A stretch of DNA of 64,000 nucleotides from Prorocentrum cordatum. Lineage: Eukaryota > Sar > Dinophyceae > Prorocentrales > Prorocentraceae. Numbering within the stretch: position 1 is the stretch's first letter; every line of letters starts with the position of its first letter. The stretch spans positions 72,001-136,000 of the forward strand of contig CAUYUJ010017656.1 in NCBI GenBank assembly GCA_963575745.1, given 5' to 3'. The position numbers were made by a program, and so were the translations under genes. Shown here one piece after another: positions 1-44,558 of the stretch. The notes beneath the pieces were generated by a model. The model did not search any database, was not told the DNA's origin, and saw only the letters and a program-made list of their open reading frames with translations.

Positions 1-28
1 TGAACTCGTTCGCGAGGTACGGATCAAC

Positions 29-830
29 ATGACCACAGGCACTGTGACCCTATCCCAACAGGCCGCAGCACTGCAGCGCGGTCTGGGAGGGCTTGCAAGG
101 ACCATGACCATGGGAGAACCCTCTGGACTCGTTAACTTTGGCGTGAACATCGGCGGTCGCCATACTGACGGAGTCACCTACATCATGCTCCTCCTCAGCA
201 ATAAGTTTGGAAATCTAGAGGGGGGGATGCCAACTGAATGCAGGAACGACTCTCATCGAATTCCGCGTCCACGCGGCAGAGCGGATCGACCAGACGTTAG
301 CACGCTTTGAGATAGCACGCTTCGAGGCCGAGATTCGGGCTTCAAGATCTCCAACTTCCAGATCCTAACAGTCATCCGATTCAGAGCTCTGGGAGTGGGT
401 ACGTCGCGCGCCAACAGCTACTACAACCACTCAACCACCAATGCCAAGGACCCAGCAACAGTTTGACTCGCAACTAGAACGCACGAGGTCCCATGCTCAC
501 ATTGCTGAGCGAACCCTTGGCAACATTGGTGGTATATTTAGTCAAGGTCATCGCACCGAAACCTTTTCACACTGATACCAATGCAGGGCAACCTGCTACC
601 AACGTCTGGAACGATGATCCACAACCAACAGAAGCCACCACCTTATTAGCTCAAAATGGTGGCCAGCCTACGGGGTCGCAAGACTCTTGGGCTCGATAGC
701 AGGGGCCGTCGGCAACGGCGGCCCCTGCCCAAGCCACTGCCCTTGTAGGCTCGGCGGGGCGACCCGCCGAGTCTGAATTTGACTCTGGGACTGGCACCGA
801 CACTTCATCAGATGAAGGAACTGGTGCCCT
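29..830 (+). pseudogene. Gag-like N-terminal region, frameshifted
   Basis: The frame from 29 contains GGRHTDGVTYIMLLLSNKF and breaks near 235. The next frame carries LIEFRVHAAERIDQTLARFEIARFEAE-type helical sequence to about 330, and a third frame continues from about 440 with HIAERTLGNIGGIFSQGHRTETF. Joined, this resembles a helical Gag of a copia element, but no catalytic motif is expected or seen. The frame opened at 493 ends at 699. Two of the 14-nt hairpins lie here (583, 754). Assignment rests on position upstream of a knuckle and on family memory, so it is moderate. Confidence 0.45.
751..770 (+). repeat. Longest stem of the hairpin family, 8 bp with GCGA loop
   Basis: TCGGCGGG, GCGA loop, CCCGCCGA: a perfect 8-bp stem extending the 14-nt core at 754-767. 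Confidence 0.8.
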
Positions 831-843
831 AGATTACTCCGAC

Positions 844-1281
844 ATGCTTACGTATCTCACAGCAGAGCAACAGGCGCAGTGGTTATTTCTAGGAAACCAG
901 AAACGTAAACGCCGCTGGAGACGTGCCATGAAGAAACCAGTTCGCAAGGCACGACGCGCTGTCCGACGGGCGTTCAGAGCAAAGGGCAAGGGCAAGGGTA
1001 GAGGCAAACGACGGCGACTACATGGCAGAGGAATGTTGGCATTCTTGGCATCCCTTACTGGACCGCAATACGAAGAACTAGTCCAGGGAACGGGTAGAGG
1101 CCGCAGGCGCACCTCAGGAAAGGGCGTTGGACGTCGGGGTAACCCGAGAGATGCCAATGGGAAAACCATGGAACGTGATATTTGCCATAGCACGCAACAC
1201 TTCCGTCGTGAGTGCCCCCACGGCGATGGGAGAGGCAGGGGTCCGTCGATACATGTGGCGCAACCCGATTCGGACATTTAG
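844..1281 (+). pseudogene. Gag basic region with a CCHC-type zinc knuckle
   Basis: A 145-codon open frame. Residues about 18-70 are extremely basic (KRKRRWRRAMKKP, then KGKGKGRGKRRR), suiting nucleic-acid binding. Near residue 110 it reads ERDICHSTQHFRREC, which matches a retroviral CCHC knuckle (C-x2-C-x4-H-x4-C) except that the first Cys has been replaced, so zinc binding is probably lost. The hairpin at 1134-1147 encodes part of RRGNPRDA just before the knuckle. The frame ends at 1281 and coding potential continues in another frame. The opposite-strand open frame is a shadow of the biased composition. Confidence 0.55.
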
Positions 1282-1344
1282 TAGGTCGATTGGGAGAGGC
1301 CATTAGCCGAACCCGGAGACGCCCCCACTGCCGCCGCCCACTTC

Positions 1345-2537
1345 ATGGCCGCCCGGCATCTAAGCGCCAGCGTGTCCCTCGAGAGATATGCCGACGAGCT
1401 CTTCGAGGAGATCTACGTTGGCCGCGACGAGATCAACCTGGCGGACTGGTGGGGCATTCCCATCGCAGGGCAACCTGCACAGATTGAGTTCGTCGAGGAT
1501 TTCCACGCGCCCGCCGATTCGGACCACGACATGGCGGGGGCACCCGCGGACTCTGATGCTACAATACCAGCAACAGTGGAGGAGCTACACGTGATGCTCC
1601 AGCCGCCGGCCATTGGCAATCCGATATACGGAGAAACATACGACGACGACCCTCTGCGGGGAAACCCGCGCGACGCTGGTGACTTTGTCCGAACGCATTC
1701 AATATGAAGTTCGACATAACAAAGGCGTTCACTTCACCTTCGCAGCACGCGACCCGTCTACGAGCCGCCCAGTTTGGAGGCGGGCGCATCGTCAAGATGA
1801 CGACGAAGACGATTGGGGAGCTGGGAGTCATCACCCGCAGCGCCATGGTCGGAGTCTTTCGCGCGGGCACTCACGCGCCCGTTCTAGCGGCGCACAGCCC
1901 CCACATCCCCCTGGCACGAGGACCCCAAGGACCCCACCTAGAGGGGAACGCTCGCGGGGAAGCCCGCCTCAGAAGGAGGGTCGGCCAGGCGAGCCCGAAG
2001 GCCACGGCATACAGCGCCTCGTCAGCTACGAAGATCATGGGCTGGCTCGCCAATTTCTCAGAATCAACCACGCAGTACTGGCTCGACGAAGGCTGGACCG
2101 AACACGACATCCGCCACTGGTATTCACTTCGCAATATTACGCGGGGCGACGATGGCTAGATGGCGCGTGCGAACGGAGGTTTCGGAACGAAGTCGGCCGC
2201 TACGCTTGCAAGAAGGGACGCAAAAAGGTCCACTATTCAGGGCCGAGAAGAATACGCGTGCCAGGTCTGCAGCTGTGAACATTTTGCAGACCACAGACCC
2301 GCATGTCCGATGGGGCGTCTTTCAAGGAGCCCTAACTTTGAGAAGACACCGTGGGTCTGGTCTCATGGAGATAGTTTGGGTCGCAAGGTGGATCCGACTA
2401 ACCATCCTCCTGGGCAATGCTTGACCAAGGCTGATTACCGGCCGATCACCGAAGACGAGGCAAAACTCAGTGAGCAAAGGTGGAAGGAACCTCGGCAACC
2501 ACCACCGCCTCAAGCGATACACTGGAGGATATCATGA
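1345..2537 (+). pseudogene. Gag/pol spacer with acidic segment and second Cys/His knuckle
   Basis: Three overlapping frames carry the signal. 1345-1707 is acidic (ERYADELFEEIYVGRDE, then repeated PADSD). 1613-2278 is Arg/Pro/Ser-rich, ending in RRFRNEVGRYACKKGRKK. 2160-2537 contains CQVCSCEHFADHRPACP, a Cys-x2-Cys...His...Cys cluster typical of a Gag-type knuckle. Hairpin copies at 1465, 1534, 1656 and 1954 interrupt or encode AGQPA, AGAPA, RGNPR and RGSP. No enzymatic domain is visible. I infer a nucleocapsid-like or linker function. Confidence 0.4.
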
Positions 2538-3731
2538 CATGATGGCTGCGGCATCACCTGCGGGGCAACCCGCTTCTCTTTTCCGATGGACGATACAAGG
2601 GCTGACGACCCTGTCCGCGCTGAGGCAGTTGACCCTACTGCTACTGTCATGATTCAGAATACACCTACAGCAGCGAGTCAACCCATGCGAATTTGGACAT
2701 CACCCAACCAGTGATGGGGGACATGGACTTAGCGCCTGGTACACTGGTGTCGTATCATACCAGATACATGGATGGTTAGGCATCAAAGTATTGTGTAAGC
2801 TGGACGATAGGCACTATCAGTTGGCCATTCAAGGCAGGCCCTAAGATCAAGAACATGCCACTTTACAAGTCAAAAAGGATTCCTACCCCAGAGAGATCTC
2901 CATCGAGAGATGCGGGGGAACCTGCGGCGCCAACAAATGCGGGGACACTCGCTGAGGAACCGCCCAGGATCCCAAATCCCCCGAAGAAGCGATCTGAGAA
3001 GGATGTCGATCTATCCCCCTCACCAAGTACGCCAAGGTCACCAAGTCCAGCATCACCTAAACGCAAGAGGAGGACCGGTCCTGTGGAGGCCGACTCTGGA
3101 AGCAACAGGCCACAAAGGTCTGCGGGGAAACTTGCTTACAGACGGCACTCCAGGGGGCCGGCAGCGGCCGCAGCAGCATCAGCGTTCCAAGGCAGCACCA
3201 CCCCCACGCCGAAGGAACCCGCATACTTGCGCGGCCCAACTCTTCGCAAGATCCACACGGGAACTGGCTGGGCGCTATCGCTGCGAGATGAGGGTGAGCG
3301 GTCACTGCAGACTACATCAAAGGCACCAGAAGCTGCTCCGAAGATCACCGGATGCCCACTACGACACCCGCGAAAAGAAGAAGGCATCTGAGAGTGCATG
3401 CTCATCTGCAGCGCCCGCCGCGGCTGCGACCCCTGCAAGGACACCTGCTGAACCGCCCTCTGCGTCCGCGGGGTAACCTGCTGCTACCACTGAACTGGTA
3501 GAAGGAAGCAGGCGATTCCGCGAACCCCTGGGAACCCTGAACCAGATGAGGCCACGCCAGCCCACAGGCCCCATGCTTCTGACGGCCCCGACCTTCCGAT
3601 ACAGGGCGGTGCAATGTAACGCAGAATAAACCGCCACACACGCTGATAAAGATGCTCTTGACCGCCAGCGCGTCTGCAATATCTCGCGGAAAGAACCTGC
3701 CCTTAGCTTCAACACCGAGGAGAACCACTTA
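2538..3731 (+). pseudogene. Low-complexity Pro/Ser/Lys linker of the polyprotein
   Basis: The longest open piece is 2855-3391 (178 codons), rich in Pro, Ser, Lys and Arg (KRIPTPERSPSRDAGEPAAP, then SPASPKRKRRTGP). A second frame, 2910-3476, ends at the TAA inside the loop of the hairpin at 3468-3481. Six hairpin copies lie in this stretch (2560, 2912, 2939, 3122, 3435, 3468), and a decayed one at 3686-3700. No domain is recognised. It probably links the Gag-like and KptA-like parts. Confidence 0.35.
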
Positions 3732-4585
3732 GTGCAGATACTGCGCGATGCGCACGTCAGCACGAGGCCCCCGAGCGAACACGATAAGCGTTGTTGCTCG
3801 GAGTGGCTCACTACAGCCATTCGGCACAAGCCATTTCACCACGACAGGCTCTCTGACCGGTTTATCAGCTGCACCACCTCGCACGACGAGTTCAACGGCC
3901 GGGTGGGCCTCGGAGACCCGCTGGAAAATGGGCCGCCGGAAAACCACGAGCATTGGCACACTCATCATCTGGACGTCATCAAGAAACGCCTCCGAGGCCG
4001 GCGCTGGGCATACCAAGCAGCGGCCGTGCTCAACCTCTGCGGGACGTTCGACAGCAACTCCAGCATGCAGAAGAACCGACTTCTGGTGAACATGCTCAAG
4101 TTCTGCGGGGAAACCCGCCCGACGTACTTCTTGCGTCTCAGCAACGGACACAGCAATCCAGGCATCAGATGTCCAGAACCTTTTTTTTTCTGGTAACGGA
4201 CCTGAACGAGCCGGGAGCGCCATGCTACTTCATCCACGCTACGCAATGGCTGAACGTCCCGAACATATTACACGTTGGTTTGTCTTGCCGCAGTGGGGAC
4301 ACTGCCAAGGGGAAACGCAGGCAGATGATTCACGGATGCCCATACTTACCTGGCGATGGGTGGACTCAATCAGGCCTGCGGATGGAGTCCGAAGTTTTGA
4401 TCATGGTGAGCCTCAAGAATCTACTTCGCGACAGCATCCCAGTTTGGCGGTCTGCCAACGACATCGTCATGACGTAAGGTATCAAAGGCAGGATTCTGCC
4501 AACCCACATTGTTAAATTTCTTGGCGTTACTCCTAACAATGTTCCATGCAAATATGATCGAGTTGGGCAGGTTTGGGTCAACGAA
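3732..4585 (+). pseudogene. KptA/Tpt1-like RNA 2'-phosphotransferase domain
   Basis: KptA/Tpt1 enzymes remove a 2'-phosphate from RNA by transfer to NAD+, classically the last step of tRNA splicing. The family landmarks appear here in order and at plausible spacing: an LRHxP-like IRHKP (about 3816-3830), RLSNGHS matching the R-x-x-QGHS block (about 4134-4154), FIHAT matching HGT (about 4229-4243) followed by WLNVPNILHVGL, RRQMIH matching R..IH (about 4319-4336), SEVLIMV, and SANDIVMT with GIKGRILP. The residues equivalent to the catalytic Arg-His-Arg-Arg set seem present. The length of about 260 residues suits the family. Breaks are a frame change at a run of nine T (4181-4189) and an in-frame TAA at 4475-4477, after which the same frame stays open to 6118. 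It lies between the Gag-like part and a RING-like part. This is motif-based; a profile search would decide. Confidence 0.6.
4290..4305 (+). repeat. Unrelated-stem hairpin with GNRA loop
   Basis: GCAGTG, GGGA loop, CACTGC: a perfect 6-bp stem with a GNRA loop but a stem sequence outside the main family, lying in the KptA-like coding segment. Confidence 0.65.
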
Positions 4586-6118
4586 TTGCATCTTCAAGAC
4601 AACCAGCAGGGCAACCTGCACCGTTCAAACCCGTTACCACATGAATATTATGAGCATCCATACGATACTTCAACATTGAAAGGATTGATTGTGCCTAGGA
4701 CTCCCTACAACCTCAAGGTCCCTGTCTCGACACCTGCGGCGGAGGTAAAGCATGCCTGTGTCTTCATGATGCAAGAGGTGTATCAAGCGGGGACACCTGC
4801 GGGAGGCTCGGATGGGTCATGGATCCAAGCTCAGAGCGCTGACCTGTCTGGCATGACATCCAGCGGAGTCACGCTGAACGACGGACTGCACGCGAGCGTC
4901 CCGCGGCGCAATCAAGCACGGCAGTTGCCGGCACCTGCGGGGCCACCCGCCGCACTCGCACTCATGAGCAGGGCCACGACCCCAGTCGGCACTCCGCAGA
5001 GCGCCGGGAGCACCAACAGTCTGCAGGCCAGACTCCACAGCATCAGGATGGATCTTCAGCTCAAAAAGGCCTTGCAAGCTACATCGCCATTTGCATATCC
5101 ACGCGCTGCTGCGGGGCAACCTGCAATTGCAGACCAGGAGTCTGCCCAGAGGGCCGAGAGCCTATTGGGGCAGCAGCAGTGGATGCACAGGCAGATGCGT
5201 GAGGCTATGGAAAACATGAAGCGGGACGGCATTGACCTCCCGAACGCCGACTGGACTCCACCCTGGGAGTACGTTCCAGACGTGAATCCCTCACCTGATC
5301 ATCCTAAGAGATATGGATACACACCAGCATTCTTTAGTCACCCGACGTACGATCCGACGGCCGCTGAAAGGCTTGTTGCACCGCCTATGAAGGCGCCTCT
5401 GTTTCCTGATTATTACGCTCAGGAGACTGGCATTCCTCGGGTCGGCATTCAACCCGAGAACCCGCACGTTCGGGCAACGGCCGATGGCTTCTATCGGCCC
5501 CAGTTCACGCGGGGAGCCGGATGCGAATCCGGCATCCCAGGCCAGGTGCCCCACTACGGGTACCCAGCAGCTCCCATGGACCAGGAGGTCAATCATCGCG
5601 GCCCAGAGCTGGTGGCACCCACGTCTATGGGAGAGCTGCGCCCCGAGATCTTGGCCATCCACGAGGCGCCGCAAGCCAACCTGTCAATGCAACCGTCTCG
5701 CCAACGACGCAATCAGGAGCGACAGCTACGCCGCACGATGAACCGCGCGGGGACACCCGCTGCTCCTACAGCCGCGGGGCAACCCGCCAAGAGCCTATCA
5801 GCAGCGGTTGCGATGGGATCAATGCCTGCGGGGCCACGAATGGCACTTGCCTTACCACCGAGTCGGCATGAGATGGGAGAATCCACACTTGATCGACAGA
5901 CGCGCGTCAGGCCATCGGCAACGCCACCGATCATGAGCGACGGTGATGTTTCTGAATTTGCCATCTGCTTGGAAGAGTTTGCATGCCACGTCAAGGTGTG
6001 GCGGCCTCAGTGCGGTCATATATGCCATGCGCAGTGCTGGGGTCGCGTGGCGCACGCACACGTGGAGCAATGGCTGGAAGGTGCACCGAATGAGGTACCA
6101 TGCGCTGCAGAGGCGTAG
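4586..6118 (+). pseudogene. Linker plus RING-H2-like finger, 510-codon open frame
   Basis: This is the longest open frame in the element and continues the frame of the KptA-like domain after one stop. The first 420 residues are Pro/Ala/Gln-rich, with AGTPA, AGPPA, AGQPA pentapeptides encoded by hairpin copies. Near the C-terminus it reads FAICLEEF, then CGHICHAQCWGRVAHAHVE, then VPCAA. The CGHxxHxxCW core is typical of RING-H2 E3 ubiquitin ligase fingers. The usual first Cys (CxIC) is Phe here, and the last CPxC pair is cut by the frame end, so zinc binding is likely impaired. A role in ubiquitin transfer is inferred from fold only. Confidence 0.5.
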
Positions 6119-6776
6119 GCCCCATCACAGCTGAGTTTCATTATGCCCTTGCTGGGGAGCAAACCGTAGCGGATCGACACGAAGAAATACACCTCGTGGC
6201 AAATGAACTCAGAGCCTCCGCGAAGAGCTGAACCGTATCACGGCGATGATGACAGGCCACCAGAGCCACCACGGCCGCTGCAGAGCCACCAGCTGCATCT
6301 GCGGGGGGGCCTGTTACATCGGCCTATGTGTGGCAGAATCCAACAGCCACGATGCCAGCCACTGGAGTGCAAATGCTTCTGGTAGCCGAATCAGCAGCTG
6401 CTGCAGGGACACCTGCCGCAACGACGCCAGCGGGGCTGCCTGCCAATGAGGCATGGCTGAGGCGTATAGAGAGATCCACTGGAGCAAGCACGCACTGGCT
6501 TCGCACGCCATGTGGCAGCGCGCGGGGAAGCCCGCTACGCACGCGCAGAACCGAGAGCCCAGCGAGTGCGCGCAGCGGTGCCAGTGCCATATCTGAGCGT
6601 GACATGCTACACACGGTCTGACGGCCCATACAGATGGGCAGACAGCCGCGCGTGCTGACGAGGACACCTTTGAGAACATTCCACTGGCGGAGCAGCGGCC
6701 CCATCGATATAACGAGTGCCCGTCTTCATGGACCTTCCAGAAGCATCCGATCACAGAAGAAGAAGCCAGGGGGTAC
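6119..6776 (+). other. Interdomain stretch without recognised domain
   Basis: Short Ala/Pro/Ser-rich frames such as 6328-6621 continue the polyprotein style. Hairpin copies at 6403, 6430 and 6532 encode AGTPA, AGLPA and a RGSP variant. No motif was identified. Confidence 0.4.
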
Positions 6777-7440
6777 ATGGACGTCTTTACATGTATGACG
6801 GGGGGCCAGTGGGAGTTGGATCACAGGCGCCGCAAGGGCACGCACGGCACAACCCTGGCCGCTGTACGGGGCATATGCGGTGAACGACATGAGTTAGCCT
6901 TGACAGCGAACAGTGGAACCATGGTGGATGGAATGCTGATTATTATGTTGGACATTGCTTTAAAATCATTGGTTTGACAACTGCACGGGCATTCGAGCGA
7001 GCTCCACGCTCCCATGGACACGACGTCAACAAGCTGGATCTGACAAGGAGGATGTATGTGTCTGGGGTGGGGCATGGCGCCGCCGTTTGCGACAAGTCGA
7101 TGCATTGCTAATTTGCGCGCAAGGAAAGGGGCGACTCCGCGGAGACACCCGCCATTGCCAGGTGCGACACATACTCAGCCAACGTGGCAGAGGGATCTAG
7201 CGAGAATATCCTTGCAATCCTGGGCTTAAGGAGCATGTCAAACATGCGCGCTATCTTGATCCTTGAACAGGGACATGAGAAGATGATCATCCCAGGTACA
7301 GACATGTGCAGGCTCCTCCTTGGAAAAGGCGCCAGGGTGCTGGACTTGGCCAAGACACCGCCAGGGCACTTGGCAGTTAAGGTCGACGAGTACGGGGTCG
7401 CAACAGAGGCCAATGGCTCGACGGCGTTTACTGTCACAGT
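6777..7440 (+). pseudogene. Degenerate retropepsin-like (aspartic protease) segment
   Basis: The frame from 6777 contains WELDHRRRKGTHGTTLAAV and then NSGTMVDGML, where a D-[ST]-G catalytic triplet would be expected, but the middle residue is missing. After a frame change it reads LTRRMYVSGVGHGAAVCD (7052-7093 for the core), then in the same frame ILILEQGHEKMIIPG and LAVKVDEYGVATEANGSTAFTVTV to about 7440. Glycine-flanked beta-type blocks and position before the integrase suit a retroviral-type protease. The lost triplet and a stop at about 7109 make it inactive. The assignment draws on memory of related elements and is moderate. Confidence 0.45.
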
Positions 7441-8112
7441 CAACCTTCAGTGCGAGGAGACACCCGTACTCATCAAGGAGGCCCCAGATGTGGAGCCGAC
7501 GGTGGGGCAACCTGCACCCAGCGATGCGGGGGCACCCGCCCCTAACGATGCTCACACATATGATGTCCCAGAACACAAGGGGCATCAGTCACTCCATCAA
7601 CGAGGAGACGCTTTCTTACACGATCCAGTCTATGGTGAACAACACCCTCAAGACCTGGCATCGCAGGAATACGCTACATGGGAACAGCCCCACGCCTGCC
7701 GATCAGGACTTCGCCTCGCAGAACTTGCAGGCAAAGATCTGTCGGGCCATCTATGAGGAGGGCAGCGAGCGGGCGCCGCCCGACGACACCGCGGGGCAAC
7801 CTGCTGCAGCGAGCGACACAGCCGAGAACTCTAACATTTTTATTTCGAGCAGTGGTTCGGGGGCCCAGGGCACGGGCGCCTGGACGCCCCCATCGCTCGA
7901 AAATGAGCGACGGGGGCAGGCGCGCGCCATGGCCACCTCGCGCTTGCCCAGACAGGCCAAACACTGAGGTGCTGTCTTCAGGCGCGGGGACACCTGCATA
8001 CTTTTCCCAGGCGCCGGCTGTGCGCGCCAGGGACAGCGGCGGACCCGGCTCTGCGGCTGCCGCAGAAAAAGAAAGCTCATCTCATAATTATCACCCGAGC
8101 CCTTGTTATTGA
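7441..8112 (+). pseudogene. Polyprotein continuation after the protease-like segment
   Basis: The frame 7184-7756 overlaps 7320-7967 and 7678-8112. Recognisable peptide is mainly linker: VGQPAPSDAGAPAPND, and NLQAKICRAIYEEGSERAPP. Four hairpin copies lie here (7502, 7526, 7791, 7984). No enzymatic signature is seen. Confidence 0.35.
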
Positions 8113-9060
8113 AGATCTACGAACAGCTGGCGCTGAACTCCGAGCTCGAGGGTACATGCGTGGTCGTATTGCACACACTGAGGTTATGACCACAGTACTT
8201 GGGTGGCTTACTATCAAGGGATTACCAACTACTGTGGGTGGCAACGCCCGCTGACTGGCACTCACGATTGCCTGGAAAGCTGGCGGGTCCACATTATCGA
8301 CGTATCCAAAATCTTATGACCGTCGATTGTACTTGTGGGACCTCCCGGATATTTTTGGAAATTCGGTCCTCGACGCGGTAATATTGAAGGTTTAGGTTTG
8401 CAGGTCATGCGTTTGCGACGTTGCCACTTCGGTCTGAAGTTCGCCCGTTCAAGTCGCTCACCGAGCAGATCATACCTGCAGGTGGAAACCACCTACACGC
8501 GCATTCCGACCAACCTGTGGACATGTATATGCCAGACTGCAGGGATCCCGCGCAACACGCAGAGCATGAGTGAGATTAGTATGGCCAGGGCGCCCAGAGG
8601 GCGGAATGGCGAAACAAAACACTTGCTACCATGGCTGCATGGCTAATTGCTCAAATAAATTACCACAAAACCAAAAAATGCTGCGCACCTCAGCGCACAC
8701 ACACGAGTGCACACAGGAGCTCGGATTTACGTCCAGTCTCCTAAGAATGGCCCTCAATGGGATCATGTGGTACGCCGGGTGAAACTCGACGACAGTACTA
8801 TTATAATGGACATTCAGGTTCAAGATCAATCTACCGGGTATAATTACAATGCACCTCTACCAAGCTGCGTGACGAACAGTCGTACTCGATTGTACTGGGA
8901 GCCTCCGGCGCCAGTGCTGCTCAGAAACGAGGGACAGCGACCACGCCCAAGGCGGGTTACGACCGTCGTTGACGATCGTCTTTCCCCCCCTCGATTAAGC
9001 TCGGCCGCGCGCTACCCCCTATTCCCGATGTTCCGACACTTACTTCCCCCGATACTGAAC
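8113..9060 (+). other. Heavily decayed part of the retroelement
   Basis: Many stops in all frames. Short runs such as LRARGYMRGRIAHTEV and YPKSYDRRLYLWDLPDIFG suggest old coding sequence. There is no GCGGG-type hairpin, but a perfect 6-bp inverted repeat sits at 8480-8494. Confidence 0.3.
8480..8494 (+). repeat. 6-bp hairpin with AAA loop
   Basis: AGGTGG, AAA, CCACCT: perfect arms in the decayed stretch of the element. Confidence 0.6.
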
Positions 9061-9075
9061 AACAACAGACAGCAT

Positions 9076-9982
9076 GACCACCAACGGATGCCCTGATCGA
9101 GCAAAAGGAAGAGCAGAAAGCTGATAAAGAAGCCGGCATCAAGCCACGCAAGATACCTAAACTAGTCGAAGACGGCAGCGGCAACTGCGGCGAGGACCTG
9201 AAGGGCCTCGGGCGTGGCGCCTACTACACCGACGTTCCCCCAGACACCGACAGTGACGACGATGAGGAAACCTTCATCACGCTACCCGCGGGGTTACCGT
9301 CGGATACACATGCCGATGTGTTTCCCATAATCCCAATCTTGTGCTACGGACGACATAACAAGGTAGACATGCTGGAATTATGTGGAGGTAATGGGGGAAT
9401 GTCGCAGTTAGCCTTCAGCCGAGCTTTATCCTCAGGTGGAAACCTCGATGAACGTTCCTATGTTGACCTTGGATACAAGGAAGGCCAGGACGCAGTTATG
9501 CAATCCTTGGATGTGTGCTTCGTCAACGTAGTTATACTACAACCGAGCTGCAGAACGAATGGACCGCCGTCCTACTTAAATCCTGAAGTCAACTACGGCA
9601 CGTGGCATGAACACCACAACGAAGGCCTTCCACACATCAAGTTATGTGGAAGAGCTGCCGCACGTCAAAGTGACCCCCGACGGTTTTACCTACGAGAACA
9701 ACCGGTGGGTATTTGGGTCGACGAAATACCACCATGGACTACGTTAGCCAAACGCGAGGCATTGACCAATGTACTACGGGTCTTCGTGACCCCCATGGGG
9801 CATTAATACGCAAACTTAAAGAGATAATGGCCAACCACCGTCTTGCTGAAACCCCTCGAGATGAAACGGCGCACGGGCCATCATCAGCACGCCTCAGTTT
9901 GCAACAAGGAACTGGCCAGGGCAGCCGAAACTATTCCGAAGATGCAGTCCGTCTTTGTCGAAGTAGTTCAACTTGCACATGA
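9076..9982 (+). pseudogene. Methyltransferase-like segment of the pol region
   Basis: After an acidic Lys/Glu/Asp linker (about 9095-9280), the frame 9318-9806 reads MLELCGGNGGMSQLAF, resembling the glycine-rich SAM-binding motif I of C5-cytosine methyltransferases, and VILQPSCRTNGPPSYLN, resembling the motif IV region (ILxPxC). Spacing is about 60 residues. It continues with LPHIKLCGRAA and GIWVDEIPPWTTLAKRE, then shifts frame to 9713-9982. Copia elements of dinoflagellates commonly carry this block (recalled). Whether it ever methylated DNA is unknown; a Rossmann-like remnant is the safest reading. Confidence 0.4.
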
Positions 9983-10065
9983 CATGTTCCTAGTAAATCT
10001 TCACCCCTTTTCATGATCATCCTCATTCATCTTCCGTTCTCGTCACAAACATACGAGGATTCGAC

Positions 10066-10806
10066 TTGGATGACCCTACTATCCGTCGGCACCCCGACGG
10101 ATCGATCATGAGATCACCCCGAGGAGGGTGGGGGGGTCCAGCACGCGCGGACAACGTCAACATGTATTCCCCTTCACACGGTAGGAACTCTAAACATTGC
10201 AGATGGTACGATAAGGAAGATTACCACTGGGAGTGTCCAAGCTGCAAGAAGAACCATCGTCTGGCTAAACCTGCTCACTTACTTACGCCTGGCAAATGCA
10301 AATTTGCCAGATCGTGGAAGCTGCCTGACAACCACAAAGGAGCTTCCGGCTCCTGCCAAACCGGCAGCACCACCACCTGCGACGGCAGCAGCATCCGAGG
10401 CACCAGTCGCCCAACAATTTGCGCGGCTACGAGCTCCGAGGCCTGGCTCCAGAGCTGGACCAACAGCAGGTGCCAGCAGCCACGACATCACGGCAGGCAG
10501 ACATGCCGCTGAACTGGCTGAGGGGCAACCTGCCTCGAGGGGAGCCGGCAGCTCGGACGATCACAGACGACTACCACAAGTAGTGGCCAGACTAGGCCGA
10601 CAGCAAGGAGGGGAGCCACCTCCACCACCACCTGCGGGTGACCCTGCTGCTTGTCCAAGACACCCAGTCTGGTCAAGGTTCGATGTACAGATTTGTCTAC
10701 AGAACCTACGCAGCCTTGATCCAAGCGTGGTAACACGCGCGTTGCGAAAACTGCACTCACGGTGGTTCCACGCCAAAGAGCCTAGGATGAGACTCATCTT
10801 AGCCTA
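10066..10806 (+). pseudogene. Ala/Pro-rich linker upstream of the integrase
   Basis: The frame 10066-10512 holds CPSCKKNHRLAKPAH, a C-x2-C...H cluster, and the frame 10304-10807 is Ala/Pro/Gly-rich before ending in RALRKLHSRWFHAKEPRMR. That last block looks like the start of an integrase zinc-binding region. Hairpin copies are at 10520 and 10634. Decayed by frame changes. Confidence 0.4.
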
Positions 10807-11913
10807 GGACGAGACTCATATTAACCAAGGCTGGTCTGGACAACGTCAGGCTGACCCGGATAAAGGGCGTCTGTGATACACGTCGGGGGTGCAGGGCTTG
10901 GGACAAGCCAGGGCATACCGTTATGCCGTCTACTGCGCTACCTGGCTAGTTCAACGAAGAAGTCGAATGCGATCTATTGTTCTATAAACAGGAACACCAG
11001 ATATTTCATAGAATTGATCGTTGCATCCGATTTGGTGTTGGAATCGAAATACCCGATAAAACTATGACCAGCATCTTAGATGCACATCATCAATGCTGGA
11101 TGCAATTCGGACCTGTCAAAGTACTCTACTCTGGCGGAGAGGGTGCACTTAACAACGACACCGCAAAGGCAGTCCTTAAGGCAAAAGGCACTGAGTTGAG
11201 GTTACGTGCACGTGGACAACACGCTTCGACAAGTGAAGCCAGAAATTGCAGATTACGACGCGTACTTCACGTCATGGAAGCTGAACGCAACAGGTTGGAC
11301 ACCTCTTGTGGTCACACGTCTACTGCATGAAGCCTTATTTGCCGCCAGCGCGTTCACTTTTTACAACGAGGTTTCTCCATGCAACGCACTGTTTGGACTG
11401 CAACCAGCGATGCTACCCGACCTGCCAGTTCTGGACCATGAACAGCAGACAGAAACATCCGACCACTCTCGAGAGCAGACTATCCGCCGGGTATGCATTG
11501 AGACTATCACTCAAGCCTCAGCAGTAGCCAAAACCAATCGCGCACTACGAACCAAGACCACGATCACGGGTCAGCATTTCTATGACGAAGGAGATCTGGT
11601 TGACTTTCATCGCCCCACTACTACAATGGACAACTGGGGAGGCTGGAATGGCTTTTTCCCGTTCGTACGGAACGAACCCGACAGGTGTCAAGTCATCATC
11701 AGGGTGGGGAACCGCGATGTACGAGTCCAATACGGCGACGCACGACATTCACTATACATCGAAGCTCTGATCGCTAGAGACACTGGCTCAGACAACACAG
11801 CACTACCGACTGCGCTGACATTCATAGCCAGTCTACTTGCGGGACGACCTGCTATGACATTCGGCTATATGCCGACCAAAAAGGGAAGGCTCCAGATGAC
11901 AAGTGCGAGCTGA
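10807..11913 (+). pseudogene. Integrase (rve-type core and C-terminal region), catalytic Asp lost
   Basis: Integrase would insert the cDNA copy into the host genome. A damaged zinc-binding stretch reads CDTRRGCRAWDKPGHT (about 10873-10920). The core follows with ECDLLFYKQEH (first Asp, about 10965), then VLYSGGEGALNND near 11120, where the second catalytic Asp of the D,D-35-E triad is replaced by Gly (YSGG for YSDG), and QHASTSEARN with the Glu at 11235-11237. A frame change between 11206 and 11330 moves into HEALFAASAFTFYNEVSP and a C-terminal region with GDLVDFHRP and WNGFFPFVRNEPDR. Family is clear; activity is not expected. Confidence 0.75.
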
Positions 11914-12566
11914 CTATCTCCCAGGGTACACTTAGCTCTTCAATACCTCATCAGGAACTTCTTTCGCATCGAGAACGTCGTCTCCGTCAGGTTAGCTAAG
12001 GGTATTCGCAAGCTAACTCCAGCGGCTTATGCTGACGGTTGCACACTGGTGCACTATGACAACGACGTGAATCCAGGCTGCCACTATTACGAAGCCGAAG
12101 GTACTGCCTTAAACATATACGATATAGCTGGATCAGCACATTCGGGGATCATCCGATGCCTGCGGCCACTAGACCTCAAGCGGGATTCGACCAAGAGACC
12201 ACGAAGTTCGAAGAATTGGCTGACGCACCGACACAAGACAACGATGCCAGAGAAGCTCCAGAAGACGAACCACCACAGGAGCATTGACTTTCTATTGCTT
12301 CTGAGAGATCAGACGCGGACCTCGAGGCACAGATCACGGATGCGTGGCACACAGAATTGCAGGAGGAAAAAGAGCTACTGGAGGTAACTTTAATAAACTA
12401 CCTCTATACTGTACCCACACAGATGATCACCGACAACAGTGCGCTGGTCACAGTAGCTGAAGAACAGCGGGGGCACCTGCCTACGCGGGGTAATCCACAT
12501 GATATCCACACAACGGAGACATATCATATTCCATTGTGTTCCACGGACGAAGACGACACCTAACGA
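11914..12566 (+). pseudogene. Integrase-RT connecting region
   Basis: Discontinuous coding remnants, for example LALQYLIRNFFRIENV and YADGCTLVHYDNDVNPGCHYYEAEGTALNIYDIAG across frames, then EEKELLE. Two hairpin copies sit almost back to back at 12467 and 12485. No domain is assigned. Confidence 0.4.
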
Positions 12567-13340
12567 TTGGACGTTGACCAGCATGGACAATATATAGAAC
12601 TCTGCTTCACTGCAGACATACCACAGGTAGTCCTATCTGAACAACAACACAATATATGGAACTTTGACCGCGTGACCACTATGCGAGCATATGCGACCGC
12701 TGCAGCTAAACGAGTTGTAGTCGTCAAGGAGAACAACCTCCTCACGAAGGCCGACATCAGGCGAATCCAGTTAGGGTATCTGAAGCCCTATACACTGAAT
12801 TCAAGACATGGTTCGACATCAAGTGTTACGAAATGCAAGATATAGCAAAGGCGACACTCACCATGACTTCGAGATACGATTATAAGTGGAAGTTCGTCAA
12901 GAACAAGAGTGGCCAAATGGAGCGGACCATTGGACTACGCTTGGTTCTCGGGGGATTCATGGACCTCGAAGCATTCGATGTGGAAACTTTCTCAGGGACG
13001 GCGCGTCGGTCAAGTCAGAGACTACTCGCGAGCACGGCAGCGCGCAAGGAGCAATGGATCATTGCTTCCCTTGACAGCAACAGGGCTAGCCTGAAGGGAC
13101 TTACCGATCGGGGCCTTACTGAAGCAACCGGTGCAAAGGAACGCGCGGCGCGCTTTACACTGCCGCTTGGATCCGCACCTTCGCTTAGATCCCCCACAGC
13201 ATTTGAGCACTACGATGAGTCGAAGCACACTGTTTACAGCGCCTCAAACCAGGCACCGGCACAAAGGACGCACCAAGGGCCCTCTCACTGAAGCTCAGAA
13301 AGACCACAAGAGGGATTGGTCACAGACCCACGTCCCATGA
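12567..13340 (+). pseudogene. Ty1/copia reverse transcriptase, N-terminal half
   Basis: The RT would copy element RNA into cDNA. The frame 12833-13291 contains SRYDYKWKFVKNKSGQMERT, LRLVLGGFMDLEAFDVETFS, ARRSSQRLLASTAARKEQWI and IASLDSNRASLKGL. Copia RTs have the order W..K.K.......KARLV..GF, then T..P....ITIR..L, then QLDV..AFLNG; the block IASLDSNRASLKGL matches the last (first catalytic Asp). Frame breaks follow near 13200-13340. Confidence 0.7.
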
Positions 13341-13745
13341 CGAGGAGTTCGAGACAAGTCCCAACTTTCTTACAGCCAAGCACTGAGGACACAATCGACA
13401 AGTACGTCAAGTGTGTCAAGAGTACTTCTGGCAAATGTTAACTCAACGAGCACACATAGACCAATTGTGATATGAGGTGCAAAGAGGATGGGAGCGGCAA
13501 CGTGACACTTGATCAAGACGAATGTTATTAAACTACCCCGCCCCATACAACATCCTGAACTCACTGGCGCAGACGCTGACGCCAAGACATCAAAGATGGT
13601 CACAGAAATGCTTGTCAGCCACAGACGTGTTTTGGCTTACGCCTTAATCACACAGGTGCGATTGATAGCATATGTTGCATCCCTACAACGTGTCCAAGAA
13701 ATGACCAACACCTACGTGCGATGACAGAACGCGATTACCAGGAAG
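13341..13745 (+). pseudogene. RT C-terminal half with the catalytic dyad missing
   Basis: After TAKH (about 13371-13384) the sequence jumps to EDTIDKYVKCVK; no [YFV]xDD is readable in any frame between 13200 and 13740, so the polymerase dyad has apparently been deleted. Later peptide QHPELTGADADAKTSKMV and LAYALITQVRLIAYVASLQRVQE (13547-13700) is RT/RNase H connection sequence. Confidence 0.55.
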
Positions 13746-14375
13746 TTGCAGGCTTGCCTTAAGAAGATCGTCTACCAATCGGTGACTCCAACGGGCGAGG
13801 GCGACCTGCAAAGCGACTCCGGTTACCGGCGTCTTAGTGGAGATGCCGAGGACGAGGTCAAAGGCCATGGCATTCGCGGGGCAAACCTGCTACGGCGTGG
13901 AAACACGCCTGCTGGTAAGCCCGTCGCCCATCTGATCGACGCGCACTGCAAGTCTCACCGCTCGCAGGTCCGCTCAAGCTACTCAGCGAAAGCACTAGCA
14001 GCAGCCCACAGCTTGGAGGACTGCTATCCCACGGTCGTCACTTTGCATGAACTCCACGCAGGGCCGCTGACACCCACTCAGTTGAGATATATACTTGAGA
14101 TGGGTGGCCTGAGCATTAAGGTCACTTCGACCGTCGATGCGGAATATGTTATCAAGTCCTTGTCAAGCAACGACCTGAAGAAACCGACTAAGCGTACTCT
14201 CTTTGAACACGTCAGTTGGATACGACAGATGATGGAGCGAGGTATCGTGCATAGTGTACAGTGGCGTGACACTCGCGACATGATTGCAGACGGCCACACC
14301 AAAGGGAGCATCGACAGAGATATGCTCGCACAGGCCATGGGAGGAACGCAATCTTTTTTATATTATATTTTTTGA
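13746..14375 (+). pseudogene. Copia-type RNase H, catalytic Glu replaced
   Basis: A 209-codon uninterrupted frame ending in TGA at 14373-14375. It reads SDSGYRRLSGD (first catalytic Asp, 13815), VRSSYSAKALAAAH, where related elements have AE so the catalytic Glu appears changed to Lys (13989-13991), TVDAEYVIKSL, and DTRDMIADGHTKGS, the copia ADxxTK tail. It would degrade the RNA strand of the RNA-DNA hybrid. A hairpin variant with a 5-nt loop (13876-13890) and a different 6-bp hairpin (13894-13909) are read in frame. It is the least broken domain of the element. Confidence 0.7.
13894..13909 (+). repeat. Unrelated-stem hairpin with GAAA loop
   Basis: GGCGTG, GAAA, CACGCC: a perfect 6-bp stem with a GAAA tetraloop, four bases after the family copy at 13876-13890 and within the RNase H frame. 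Confidence 0.7.
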
Positions 14376-14388
14376 ACACAAAAAAACC

Positions 14389-14432
<44 letters not shown>

Positions 14433-14700
14433 GGCCAGCCAGACAAGATCGTCTGAGCCGCCCGAGTAGCAATCGCCTGCAAGGTGAGTTGCCTGCGAGG
14501 CAACTTGCCTCAAACGCACTTGCGTGCGGGTCAAGCGTCCTTGTTGAGCCCGCCTGCTGCTGCCTACCTTGCGTATATAGTGTTCTACTGTATAGCAGGC
14601 GGCGGGCTCACGTTTCGTCTCTTCCCCCCCGACTCTAAAGGAGGCTGGGGCAAAGGCGAGAGATAGCGAGCGTTTGTCCGCGGCCGTTTGTTTTCAAGCG
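14376..14700. repeat. Retroelement 3' flank: TA tract and two inverted repeats
   Basis: A (TA)n tract spans 14394-14429. An inverted repeat has arms 14482-14494 (AGGTGAGTTGCCT) and 14498-14510 with two mismatches and a 3-base loop. A second has perfect 9-bp arms GAGCCCGCC at 14546-14554 and GGCGGGCTC at 14601-14609. These may belong to the terminal region of the retroelement, but no LTR partner is available. Confidence 0.6.
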
Positions 14701-14738
14701 GCCGGCCGCCAACATATGAGGCACATTACTTGCCATCG

Positions 14739-15380
14739 AGACCGAAAACATATTCGCTTGACATGGCCCGTCGCTCCCGCGACGATCTCCTACTTCTGGG
14801 AGTATCGCTAATACGGTACAACCGGGTTGGATATGTGCTTTGCCTTAGGCGAAGTTTCTGGTAGGGCCTCACAACCCCCTTCAAACTATGGAGGCCTTGG
14901 CGGCGGAGAGTTGCATCGGCGCCGAAGCGGGCGAATTCGAACAGGTACTGCACGGGCCCTGGGTTCAGTGCCAAGATGTTCGACGAGCGCGGCGTGTCGG
15001 CAGAGTTTGGGGACTTGCTGGCAGCCATGAGAGAGGTCTACAGGGACTTCTGGCCTGCTGCTGCCAGGGAAGGGTTTGCGCCAACCGCGCGCGCGGGGTG
15101 GGTAAGCTACGCCGACGGGGACGATAAGTGGCTTTCGGAGGCGGAAATCTTGGCCATTGAGCTGGGGGTCATAATGGACCAGAGCCTGCCGCGATCGAGG
15201 AGCTCGACGAACACCTAGCCAATATGTCTAAATTGTGCCCTGGCGACGGCGGAAGGACGTGTATGAGTTCGTGGAGTGCGCGTGCTTCTCGGCAAGCCCC
15301 TCTGGGAGCGGAGGGTTTGCGAAGACGCTCTCAATGAGGCGACCCAGCTGGGCCTGGGGTCGCTCCCCCCTTTTTCCCGC
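14739..15380 (+). pseudogene. Decayed protein-coding remnant, unknown function
   Basis: A coding-like series in changing frames. One frame reads MARRSRDDLLLLGVSLIRYN and stops at about 14863. It reopens with FSAKMFDERGVSAEFGDLLA, then MREVYRDFWPAAAREGFAP and GDDKWLSEAEILAIELGVIM to about 15180. The next frames carry EPAAIEELDEHLANMSKLCP, KDVYEFVE and LLGKPLWERRVCEDALNEA to about 15355. Successive pieces abut with small shifts, as in a recent pseudogene or a gene with assembly errors. I do not recognise the family. Confidence 0.4.
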
Positions 15381-15830
15381 CCCCCTTCACCGCGTAAGTC
15401 TGTCATCCTGCACCTTTTCCTCCTCCTGAATTCGCAGCCCCCGCACGCACGTAACGATGAGGTGCGCGTCCACCAGGGCTGTGCGTGTCGCGGCCGAGTG
15501 TCCTCTCCAGAAAAAACAGAGAAGGGGTGTGCCCATCCGAGAGGTTTTTCTCAGCACCCGAAGTGAAGGTCGCCACTCCACCCAGGTGTCGGCGACAGGA
15601 CACACCCCGAAGAAACAGCTGCGCGGAGGGGGAAGGGGAGAGGAGCGGGAAAGGAGTGAGCAGGCAAGAACTGGAAGGCGGAGGCGACCGACGCGCGGCG
15701 GAGGGGTGTGAGCCACCCACCCACCCCTTAGGCGCTCGCGCGCCCGCCCGAGGCAAAGGGCGGGGAAGTGAGAGGGGAAGAAATGGAGAAGAGCTGGGGC
15801 TTCAAATGAAACGAGCAACAGCTTTGAAAG

Positions 15831-16017
15831 AGGAAGGAGGAGGAGGAGGAGGAGGACGACGAGGACGAGGACGAGGAGGACGAGGAGGACGAGGAGGACG
15901 AGGAGGACGAGGAGGACGAGGAGGACGAGGAGGAGGAGGAGGAGCAGGAGCAGGAGCAGGAGGAGGAGGAGGAGGAGGAGGAGGGAGAATGAGGAGGAGG
16001 AGGAGGAGGAGGAGGAG
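15831..16017 (+). repeat. (GGA)n / 9-bp GAGGACGAG purine tract
   Basis: Purine-rich low complexity, with a central 9-bp GAGGACGAG periodicity around 15855-15930. The long open frames here (poly-Gly/Arg or poly-Ser) are artefacts of composition. Confidence 0.9.
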
Positions 16018-16154
16018 CCATCACGGCTACGGGGTGGAGCAGCCGACCGGCAGCCCGCAGGCCGGCAGGCGGCTGGGGCGCCGCTGCGTCACGGCTGGCG
16101 GGGCGGGGCTCAGCGCTCAGCGCCTGCCCCCAACGACAGGAGGCTCACGGGCAC

Positions 16155-16620
16155 TTAGCAACTGTTCAGCGACCGCCGTCTGCAGAATAGCACCGAGCTC
16201 TTGCCAGAAGGCGACGGCATCAGCGGAAGCCCCGTGGCCAGCCCGGGCGGGTACCGGCGGCGCTTCTCGTGAGCTGCAGCTTCCGCTGCAAGACCAGGCT
16301 TCTCCGCCCGAGCACATTCCACGCGCTCTTCGGTGCTGTCGGGGCTGACTACCATCACGTCCACCGCCCTCGCGGCACCCTGGCGAGACCAGACCACATC
16401 GAGGACCGCCAGCTCGACGCGCTTGATTTCGGCCCCGTCCACCCAGACTCGGCGAAGCTGTTGCCACTGGGGCACAACCTGTTCCTTCTGCACCCACGCG
16501 GGGATGCGCCGGGGAAGCCAGCGGGCCAGCAAATCGAAGACACGGTCATGCCGTGTCACGCGGCGCTTTCCATCTCGCACGCCAGCACGTGGTGCTGACC
16601 GGGCTCCAGAGTCGTTCCGC
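16155..16620 (-). pseudogene. RT-associated nuclease-like C-terminal domain (non-LTR element type), fragment
   Basis: Read on the minus strand: RHDRVFDLLARWLPRR, then VQKEQVVPQWQQL, VLDVVWSRQGAARAVDVMVV, and AAAHEKRRRYPPGL, ending at 16155. In dinoflagellate genomes this arrangement (RHDR, EQ.VP, LDVV....R..DVTVV, KRRRYP) is typical of the region after a non-LTR reverse transcriptase and resembles a PD-(D/E)xK nuclease core (recalled). No RT upstream of it is recognisable; on its 5' side it runs into the TCC tract at 16681-16746. It is probably a truncated retroelement tail. Confidence 0.5.
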
Positions 16621-16660
16621 AAAGCGCCCCAGCAAGGGACGTGTTTCGACAGTGCGTCCT

Positions 16661-16690
16661 GCTGCCAGGTGACGATCGCTTCTCCTCCTC
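16661..16690 (+). repeat. Short dispersed motif GCTGCCAGGTGACG beside TCC tracts, copy 1 of 3
   Basis: The 19-base consensus GCTGCCAGRTGRCGNTCGC occurs here, at 18449-18468 and, more diverged, at 19663-19682, always on the plus strand and always touching a TCC-rich tract. Confidence 0.6.
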
Positions 16691-17000
16691 CTCCTCCTCC
16701 TCCTCCTCCTCCTCCTCCTCCTCCTCCTCCTCCTCCTCCTCCTCCTGCCCACATCTTTCACCAGCGCCTCCCACCTTCCGTCCCTAATATCACTCTCCGA
16801 TCCTCTCTGTCTCTGCCCCCTTTCCAACACTTCCCCCCCTTCCCCACAACACGTCTACCCACTTCCACGCTTCTCCCTCCCACCCCGCCCCCTCCCCCCC
16901 GTCTCCCTTCCAACCCTTGCTTCCGAATCCTGCCGTCTCAGCCCCCACCCTTCCCTTCCCCGTTCCCATCCCCCTCTCCTGCCCGATCTGGTTCGAGGGT
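16681..17000 (+). repeat. (TCC)n tract followed by C/T-rich DNA
   Basis: Nearly pure TCC from 16681 to 16746, then C/T-rich, low-complexity sequence to about 16985. Confidence 0.9.
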
Positions 17001-18360
17001 GATAGGGGGGGGCGCGAGAGGCCACAGTGGTTGAAGGATCTTTGGGCCAGTAAGGACGTCGTGATGAGTTGGAGATGGACAAGCAGCAAAAGGCAGATGA
17101 GGAGCGAGGGAAACCAGGAGATATCAGCAAATGGTGTTCGATGGTCGAGACAGTCGGCGATCGCACTCGAGCGTGCGAGGGTCTCAGGGCTCACGCAGTG
17201 AGCGCCGGACTTGCTGACTGGGCTCCCAGTGGTATTCCAAATGCGTTGGGTTCGCGGGCAGTGGGAAAGAGGAGGCCGAGGGTCATCGTTGCAGACGCGG
17301 GCTCAGGAAGATGTAAAGAGGAAGGGCAAAAGAGGGGCAGGGGCAACCTTTTAATCCGCCCCTGTACGTGCACCTCTGAGTCGTCCCCTCCCCTCCTAGG
17401 CCGTTCGAGGTTTGGAGCGGCCGAGGTGCACTTTTGGTCTCTCCCAACACACTGCATATGCCCTGGCAGTGTGTTTTTGTTTTATGCTTTTTGTGTGAAT
17501 TTCGCTGCGCGAAGGCTGTAATCCCTCCCTCCATCAATCCTTCGTCCTTACAAATAACTCCCCACCTTGCCGTGCCACCAGACGTGACCGTAGGTGTTCC
17601 GTCTGGGACTTCTTGACAGGTGATAACATGATCTTGAAGCTAGAGAAATTTCCACGGTTACAGGGGTGGAGGGATGATCGTCTTCAAAGTGTGGTTCTTA
17701 TCTCAGCTTTGTGTACATGTGTTGTCGAAATTCTCAACAGCTGCAATACAAGGATGGAGGTGGTCTGGTTTACAGGCTTCCATGAGCACAAGACTGCAAG
17801 CCGGCTCGTTTTCGGAATGCGGCTCTAGTTTGAAACGTCTTCAAGTTCTATGCCCCGAAATTCCGAATTGTGCAGCAGCGACACGAAAGGAGGGTGAATG
17901 TGCTTGAGCACGGAATTTTCGCCTCAGCGCTACGAACACTCATCGCGAAAAAAACATAGCTAAACGGATGGAGGTGGTGCTGTTCAGCATGCGGTTCTCG
18001 CTACGATCCGAAGGTCGAAATCGCGCAAAAGTTTAAAGAAGTGAGGGCGGCTTCCTTTCAAAATGGAGCATGCGCTTGATACTTCCACGAACTGTATGAC
18101 CAGGACTGTGAAAATATGAAACGCTTCACGGACGGGGGGCAGATCGATGTCAAAACAGGGTTATCGTTGGAGGTTTCCTGACAGTTGGTCAGCCTAACTT
18201 TTCGCGCTGCTCTCAGCTAGAAGGACGGAGGCGGATTCTTTACACACGGGGTCTGGCCTGAGTGACAGGCGCACCAGGCGCCCGCCATTTCAGCAGTGGA
18301 GAGGAGGATGTGTAGGAACTCATGGGGAGGGGACTTGGGACGAGAGGATGCATCGCAGCA
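17001..18360. other. No gene recognised
   Basis: Single-copy-looking sequence with only short open frames. 17600-18200 is relatively AT-rich. No RNA gene or domain was found. Confidence 0.5.
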
Positions 18361-18444
18361 TCGCTGATGCATACTTTCTTCTTCCTTCTCCTCCTCATCC
18401 TTATTCTCTCCGCCCCCCATTTTCCCTCCTCCGCCTTTTCTTTC

Positions 18445-19590: not shown

Positions 19591-19662
19591 GTTTCGTGCT
19601 CCAAATCATTTTGTGAAGTAGGTGGGTTCGGGCAACTTGAACTCACTCTATCATCCGTTTCC

Positions 19663-19815
19663 ATTACCAGATGACGTTCGCTCCTCCTCCTCCTCCTCAT
19701 CCTCCTCGTCATCATCATCCTAATCCTCCATTCCTCATCCCCCCTTTCCTACATATTTCCTCGTTCACCTGTTCCTCTTCCTCATCATCATCCCCCCTCC
19801 ATCCCTCCCTCCCTA
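19663..19815 (+). repeat. TCC/TCA-rich tract with flanking motif
   Basis: The diverged copy of the dispersed motif at 19663-19682 runs into CTCC/TCATCA-rich sequence to about 19815. Confidence 0.75.
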
Positions 19816-44465: not shown

Positions 44466-44522
44466 TCGGATGATGATGATGATGCTGATGATGATGATGA
44501 TGATGATGATGGTGATGATGAC

Positions 44523-44558
<36 letters not shown>

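Follow-up and report, generated by a model that had tools for sequence, protein, structure and literature searches.

In bacteriophage lambda, the boxB hairpin occurs once per nut site, has a 5-bp stem and a GNRA-like loop of five bases, and is bound by the arginine-rich N peptide. RNAs of the CsrB/RsmZ type carry many GGA hairpins and titrate CsrA, and byp elements are short hairpins inside coding sequence. Packaging signals that are dispersed along an RNA are hard to prove, and the viral examples are weak and degenerate. A paper on single-stranded RNA (ssRNA) viruses describes multiple dispersed sequence-structure packaging motifs with a shared recognition motif in one genomic RNA (PMC6281560). 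Here, a related arrangement is described in the dinoflagellate Prorocentrum cordatum, in a stretch of 64,000 nucleotides of contig CAUYUJ010017656.1 (assembly GCA_963575745.1, positions 72,001 to 136,000), which is referred to as the window. Positions 1-14885 of its plus strand are an old copy, with many stops, of a Ty1/copia-type long terminal repeat (LTR) retrotransposon of about 15.7 kb, and a 14-nt unit repeated along this element is almost certainly a sense-strand RNA hairpin kept by selection on its fold.

Like the ssRNA-virus packaging signals described in that paper, the hairpins are multiple, dispersed and built on a shared motif of the sense genomic RNA, here inferred from DNA alone. 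Unlike them, they belong to an LTR retrotransposon, have a strict loop and clamp, reach 46-47 copies in each of two young elements and come in group dialects. They share with boxB, whose partner is an arginine-rich peptide, the stem of five base pairs and the GNRA-like loop, and differ from it by their four-base loop and their dozens of copies, against a single boxB with a five-base loop. As in CsrB/RsmZ, many copies of one short hairpin are found in one RNA; unlike there, the GNNA loop is rarely GGA and the copies lie in transposon coding sequence. The loops are mainly GAAA, GCAA, GCCA, GGCA and GACA, with GGAA in 6/140 and GGGA in 1/140. The resemblance to byp is that short hairpins stand inside reading frames. 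Here, however, the reading frame continues across the hairpin, and among the fetched copies no clean empty site was seen; no frame restoration by skipping of the hairpin was found, since open frames of up to 2468 amino acids read through. In the literature searched, a limited collection, no earlier description of such hairpins in retrotransposons was found, and the word 'hairpin' is absent from the main text of a paper on Ty1/Ty3 RNA packaging (PMC4974528).

A strict hairpin repeated in one orientation

The strict unit is GC-NNN-GNNA-N'N'N'-GC, that is, 14 nt with 5 bp, a fixed GC clamp and a GNNA tetraloop. It was scored by a rule that asks for five canonical pairs, counting G.U, for GC at both ends and for a G..A loop. 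By this rule window 1-14400 contains 24 copies in the sense orientation and none in antisense, whereas 200 dinucleotide shuffles have 0.325 on average and never more than 2; this confirms the repeated sense-strand hairpin reported in an earlier note on this DNA. Window 14401-64000 holds 2 sense copies, one of them (14495) inside the element, and 2 antisense copies. When the element is joined to its upstream part, it carries 26 strict sense copies, all between the LTRs, and no antisense copy; 25 are in the window and one is 366 bases upstream of it. The earlier note had counted 34 copies between 583 and 13890. The set reaches past that span, as it includes 14495 and the upstream copy. About 24 of the 34 are strict and the remaining ten or so are decayed copies picked by eye (1134, 1954, 3435, 6430, 6522, 7139, 7502, 10520, 11839 and 12485), recognisable by nothing but their GCGGGG-like look because hairpins with one deviation are at background level (26 sense vs 22 antisense in window 1-14885). 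The sharp edges noted earlier are confirmed, with the reservation that one related family mostly has C as the next base 3′ of the hairpin.

The 25 strict copies of the element that lie in the window are on the plus strand. Those with no G.U recorded are GCAGGGCAACCTGC at 583-596, 1465-1478 and 4606-4619, GCGGGGCGACCCGC at 754-767, GCGGGGGCACCCGC at 1534-1547 and 7526-7539, GCGGGGAAACCCGC at 1656-1669 and 4105-4118, GCGGGGCAACCCGC at 2560-2573 and 5774-5787, GCGGGGCCACCCGC at 4937-4950, GCGGGGACACCCGC at 5747-5760, GCAGGGACACCTGC at 6403-6416, and two with T-A at pair 4:11, GCGTGGTAACACGC at 10725-10738 and GCGTGGAAACACGC at 13895-13908. Stems with a G.U pair are GCGGGGGAACCTGC at 2912-2925, GCGGGGACACTCGC at 2939-2952, GCGGGGTAACCTGC at 3468-3481, GCGGGGACACCTGC at 4787-4800 and 7984-7997, GCGGGGCAACCTGC at 5111-5124 and 7791-7804, and GCGGGGGCACCTGC at 12467-12480; GCGGGGAAACTTGC at 3122-3135 has two. 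The last copy, GCGAGGCAACTTGC at 14495-14508, combines A-T with G.U and is located past the RNase H region, ahead of the 3′ LTR. A search of window 1-20000 gave no Rfam match at the gathering score.

The genome (4.13 Gb in 21875 contigs) contains 8676+9845 occurrences of GCGGGGNAACCYGC, compared with 373+403 for the reversed control. Twenty loci were taken around the first genome matches of one hairpin pattern and are hairpin-enriched because they were chosen in this way. Together with window 1-16000 they hold 399 sense and 15 antisense strict copies, so that the fixed orientation reported earlier extends to nearly all copies of the sampled elements, and equal numbers in both orientations were not found. 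Alignments place the elements in family A (L009-L016), family B (L022-L025) and a looser group to which the window element belongs (W, L017-L021 and L026). Two young family B elements have 47 and 46 sense hairpins, all between the LTRs, with none in the LTRs or in the fetched flanks, and 5 and 4 antisense matches. In one of them (L024+L025) two antisense matches are adjacent, at element positions 10556 and 10571, and the second element has the like at 10458 and 10473, perhaps a chance duplicate. Six further stretches were added later; each of the four of the window element's type, which were picked by the G.U form of the hairpin, contains 11-17 copies in sense and 0-2 in antisense orientation.

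For 97 of 100 listed genome places, another listed place lies within 15 kb on the same strand, and for none does one lie there on the opposite strand; one of the three others, the last of those listed, has neighbours in another listing of matches. Judging from this clustering, the hairpin seems not to be carried mainly by host genes. L027 and L028, each 9.9 kb taken around a lone match, contain no mapped element and have 2 and 3 strict sense copies, respectively. Within the elements, the hairpins tolerate different positions and are placed mostly in the linkers between conserved polyprotein domains: in one family B element, the 5432 bp of mapped domains contain 3 hairpins and the remaining 10427 bp of the internal region 44.

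Selection on pairing in the RNA

The covariation test that the earlier note had proposed was performed on sites chosen by GCNNGGNNACNNGC, which leaves pairs 3:12 and 4:11 free and is blind to the pairs under test. This selection gave 373 sense and 8 antisense matches, corresponding to 132 independent sites, and the two pairs were canonical in 123/132 and 127/132 of them; the maxima reached in 20000 permutations were 101 and 100. Comparison of aligned relatives led in the same direction. At 70-75% and 75-85% identity, pairing is preserved in all of the 9+20 double changes, whereas control hairpins of the same elements at 70-85% identity show 54+46 (100) pairing vs 104+52 (156) broken doubles; at 85-93% identity the counts are 7 pairing and 0 broken. 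Genome-wide, the G.U form of the hairpin occurs 7340 times (reversed control 250) and the A.C form 491 times (control 168); the earlier note had seen the A.C avoidance in a few window copies. Decay of the CpG type would be expected to make the two counts alike.

Some of the counts weigh against this interpretation. At least one of the two tested pairs is broken in 12/132 independent sites. At 60-70% identity, where the alignment is unreliable, 11 double changes are pairing and 7 are broken. Single changes break pairs nearly as often as they keep them (22 broken vs 25 kept at 70-75% identity, 30 vs 42 at 75-85%), and the Fisher values overstate certainty because the pairwise counts are not independent.

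The conserved object is small. Among the aligned relatives the hairpin is more conserved than its flanks, and for most identity bins conservation is lower in these flanks than around control hairpins. Directly outside the stem, pairing falls below expectation (0.171 vs 0.316 expected, standard deviation 0.034), and for this reason the stem seems to be bounded at five pairs. A larger conserved structure around the hairpin was rejected on the basis of the low flank conservation together with this depletion. The enriched class consists of four-base GNNA loops (405 vs 16); no sense excess is seen for GC-clamped stems whose loops have 3 or 5-8 bases, and a five-base GNRA-like loop of the boxB type was not found to be enriched. 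When folded in a local context of 174 nt, the hairpins have a median pairing probability of 0.92 vs 0.02 for GC-rich control hairpins (120 of 386 hairpins and 120 of 499 controls sampled).

The relation of the hairpin to the protein code was examined in open frames of at least 400 amino acids, with related copies counted separately. Family A hairpins stand in frame 2 in 122/170 cases and are read as R-G-N-P, Q-G-N-L, L-G-N-E, L-G-N-Q or R-G-N-S, and family B hairpins stand in frame 0 in 66/84 cases and are read as AGxPA. The reading phase thus varies, as the earlier note had stated, and selection on the protein fails as an explanation because peptide and frame differ by family; a protein repeat alone, which that note had also doubted, does not account for the unit. 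In sense AGxPA runs without a stop, read in three frames, the third bases of the Ala and Pro codons (pair 3:12) pair in 287/302 cases, compared with 34% of control A..P codon pairs (n=271). AGxPA runs written in codons that cannot pair, a pattern that would speak against RNA pairing, are accordingly rare. In 271/307 runs the last base of the x codon is A, and Gly is written as GGG in 290/307, against a GGG background of 19%. The opposite strand of the hairpin also reads AGxPA, and the G.U cases appear there as A.C. RNA structure here dictates protein sequence, since the residue pairs R..P, Q..L and L..E co-vary because their codons must pair. Taken together, the unbiased covariation, the compensatory doubles, the excess of G.U over A.C and the family-dependent frame support pairing in RNA as the explanation of the unit, as opposed to a protein repeat.

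Hairpin dialects of the element groups

Each of the three groups keeps its own version of the hairpin. At independent sites of family A the loop is GNRA in 43/46, the next base 3′ is C in 40/46 and any G.U is present in 3/46. In family B, the loop is GNYA at 33/41 sites, and 7/41 contain G.U. For the window's group, G.U is present in 26/55, frequently as G3.U12, and the loops are mixed (33 GNRA and 22 GNYA). The reading frame is not the cause of the loop dialect, because the difference persists within frame 2, where the loop is GNRA in 32/33 family A sites and 0/6 family B sites. Part of the G.U in the window's group may be decay, because this group holds older, broken copies.

A possible recognition code and its alternatives

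From the above, we infer that the hairpin acts in the RNA of the element, with a family-specific reader, most likely Gag, for self-recognition or packaging. The hairpins would be cis-acting recognition sites dispersed along the sense genomic RNA, and a family-specific partner, for which the element's own Gag is the best candidate, would read the hairpin code. Gag would bind through its arginine-rich and zinc-knuckle region, and full-length self RNA would be selected and packed through many weak contacts, a way of working that is proposed for the dispersed packaging signals of ssRNA viruses. A dispersed recognition code of this kind, with a putative family-specific reader that is most likely the element's own Gag and serves self-selection and packing, is given a probability of about 0.5 on the sequence evidence. 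The narrower proposal that the dialects are passwords, by which Gag or another element-encoded partner tags self RNA and avoids cross-family packaging, is more tentative and falls somewhat short of even odds. If true, a distributed self/non-self code would be superimposed on a protein code. The motif is short and strict; an element carries dozens of copies and the genome thousands, with natural compensatory mutants and three dialects. The idea of dispersed signals becomes directly testable because of this strictness, abundance and variation, and the system could help to answer how LTR retrotransposons pick their own full-length RNA.

The evidence from relatives of Gag does not all point in this direction. 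Twelve Gag homologs from other sources (P0001-P0012, 30-37% identical) have at most one AGxPA each and, in a stricter count, at most three frame-2-type peptides. By eye, a similar arginine-rich/zinc-knuckle region is kept in P0001, P0007 and P0011, without the dense hairpin signature, so that this region alone does not explain the hairpins. A protein 40% identical (P0014), which has both Tpt1 and RING, contains eight AGxPA, of which five are AGQPA, RGNL twice and RGNS once. Its signature is imperfect, as 3/8 AGxPA have N or H at x, which would give no loop A in that frame, and there is one RGNQ; evidence at the protein level can neither prove nor exclude hairpins behind it.

An explanation with a smaller but real chance, perhaps half that of a Gag-read code, is that a host RNA-binding protein reads the hairpins for export, stability, translation or a sponge-like titration. 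The dozens of copies per element, the very short motif resembling a protein site, its presence in three diverged groups within one host and the twelve Gag relatives that lack the dense protein signature would all suit such a reader. Family-specific dialects, in contrast, are not expected from one shared host reader, and the listed genome matches are nearly all in same-strand clusters, while lone matches are rare, at a frequency close to that expected from the reversed control; P0014, moreover, shows a similar though imperfect peptide signature.

Less probable again is that the element's own RNA 2′-phosphotransferase (Tpt1), or a linked RNA cleavage and ligation, acts on the hairpins for repair or marking. 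In the few elements examined, the hairpin signature goes together with the Tpt1 domain, which keeps a Tpt1-linked role in RNA processing in play and counts against Gag as the reader. A Tpt1 match is present in 14/21 sequences (the 20 loci and the window); of the seven others, four begin downstream of the region, L013 aligns from the second half only and L027 and L028 have no mapped element. P0014 joins Tpt1 to a similar signature, and six RING-bearing Gag relatives have neither Tpt1 nor a dense signature; Tpt1 is listed for none of P0001-P0012, and the six scanned with Pfam gave no match at E up to 1. On the other side, the elements are few, and Tpt1 is known for acting on the 2′-phosphate at ligation junctions and, to our knowledge, not on hairpins. 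The open frames continue through the hairpins and nothing needs to be cut out, which also leaves the excision considered in the earlier note without support.

Three further explanations are very improbable. A self-inserting mobile unit of 14-15 nt, comparable to GC clusters or byp-type inserts, would fit the many near-identical short copies with sharp edges, and the earlier note had written of hairpins seeded through the element. Among 1184 ordered comparisons, however, the strict unit is preserved in 974, while 187 show differences but no gap of 8 or more and 23 have such a gap, so that sites without the hairpin mostly reflect point changes; five gapped sites have good flanks and none of them is a clean empty site, one being a unit of a tandem repeat. 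The mobile insert was rejected on these grounds, for the fetched copies. Correction of quasi-palindromes during reverse transcription, which would keep stems without function and give correlated changes on both arms, was rejected because the control hairpins show no such bias; nor would it maintain the G..A of the loop, the GC clamp, the orientation or the G.U-rich dialect. The weakest is a protein repeat, an AGxPA linker or processing site with biased codons and the palindrome as a by-product, which suits the family B copies that mostly read AGxPA in frame but is contradicted by covariation across frames, by the other peptides and other frame of family A, whose residues co-vary as base pairs would (R..P, Q..L, L..E and L..Q), and by the third-base pairing and the compensatory changes.

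The host element

The first ~777 bases of the window element, including the 5′ LTR, lie upstream of the window. The 5′ LTR spans -777 to -509 relative to the window (L030 5223-5491) and is 82.7% identical to the 3′ LTR (14632-14885), which contains no strict hairpin. Between the LTRs, tblastn places the coding regions in a single order on the plus strand: Gag, zinc knuckle, Tpt1, RING, protease-like, methyltransferase-like, integrase, reverse transcriptase and RNase H. The capsid-like region of Gag (2-551) was located with segments of L014 and L024 and named by position and eye, and the nucleocapsid-like region with the zinc knuckle is at 1096-1254 (zf-CCHC in L014 and L024 is below the curated cut-off). 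A broken copy of the Tpt1/KptA domain follows at 3729-4507 (1e-41 with an L024 segment), the Tpt1 family PF01885 matching L014 with E 6e-21 and L024 with E 7e-15. The RING finger is at 5927-6109 and is recognised by Pfam in L014 and L024; the protease-like region at 6630-7090, found with an L024 segment, was named by eye from its D-G-S motif. Segments of L023 locate the methyltransferase-like part with a LELCGG motif (9351-9835, named by eye), the integrase region (10730-11802) and the RNase H region (13716-14345), the last two named by position and eye; Pfam gave no match on window 9078-9803 or 11200-11910. The reverse transcriptase (RVT_2, 12758-13616) matches PF07727 with E 1.5e-4 in the window, below the cut-off, and with E 1.5e-10 in L023, above it.

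The assignment to Ty1/copia is supported by the presence of RVT_2 and by the order integrase, reverse transcriptase, RNase H in the window, L019, L023, L025 and L011+L029 (tblastn, with integrase and RNase H named by eye). Two family B elements have 285-bp LTRs, 5-bp target duplications (GGGAG and AGGAC) and a primer-like site, TGGTAGCGGAGC, directly 3′ of the 5′ LTR. Integrase before reverse transcriptase, RVT_2, the 5-bp duplications and the primer-like site are as in Ty1/copia; unlike Ty1/copia, the elements are about 16 kb long, and Tpt1, RING and methyltransferase-like segments belong to them. According to a study of retrotransposons that bear a DNMT (PMC5890265), the Copia elements of Symbiodinium have no DNMT domain.

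The Tpt1/KptA domain and the RING finger stand together within a copia-type polyprotein, the Tpt1 domain being at 3729-4507 in the window, 5671-6405 in L014 and 6296-7105 in L024. Ten other long open frames of the window have no retroelement domain, two protein queries found no relatives in viral contigs, and a further protein search returned the query itself as sole match. Two P. cordatum proteins are 86-90% identical to a retrotransposon segment of this genome over 25-41% of the query. P0013 and P0015, two predicted proteins of P. cordatum that bear the name of a glucan synthase or a phosphatase, also contain pieces of this retrotransposon and are likely gene-model chimaeras. Downstream of the element, a 77-bp tandem repeat of about 12 copies (43297-44385) is followed by a long GAT repeat (44469-45067), and the GC skew is high at 44-46 kb.

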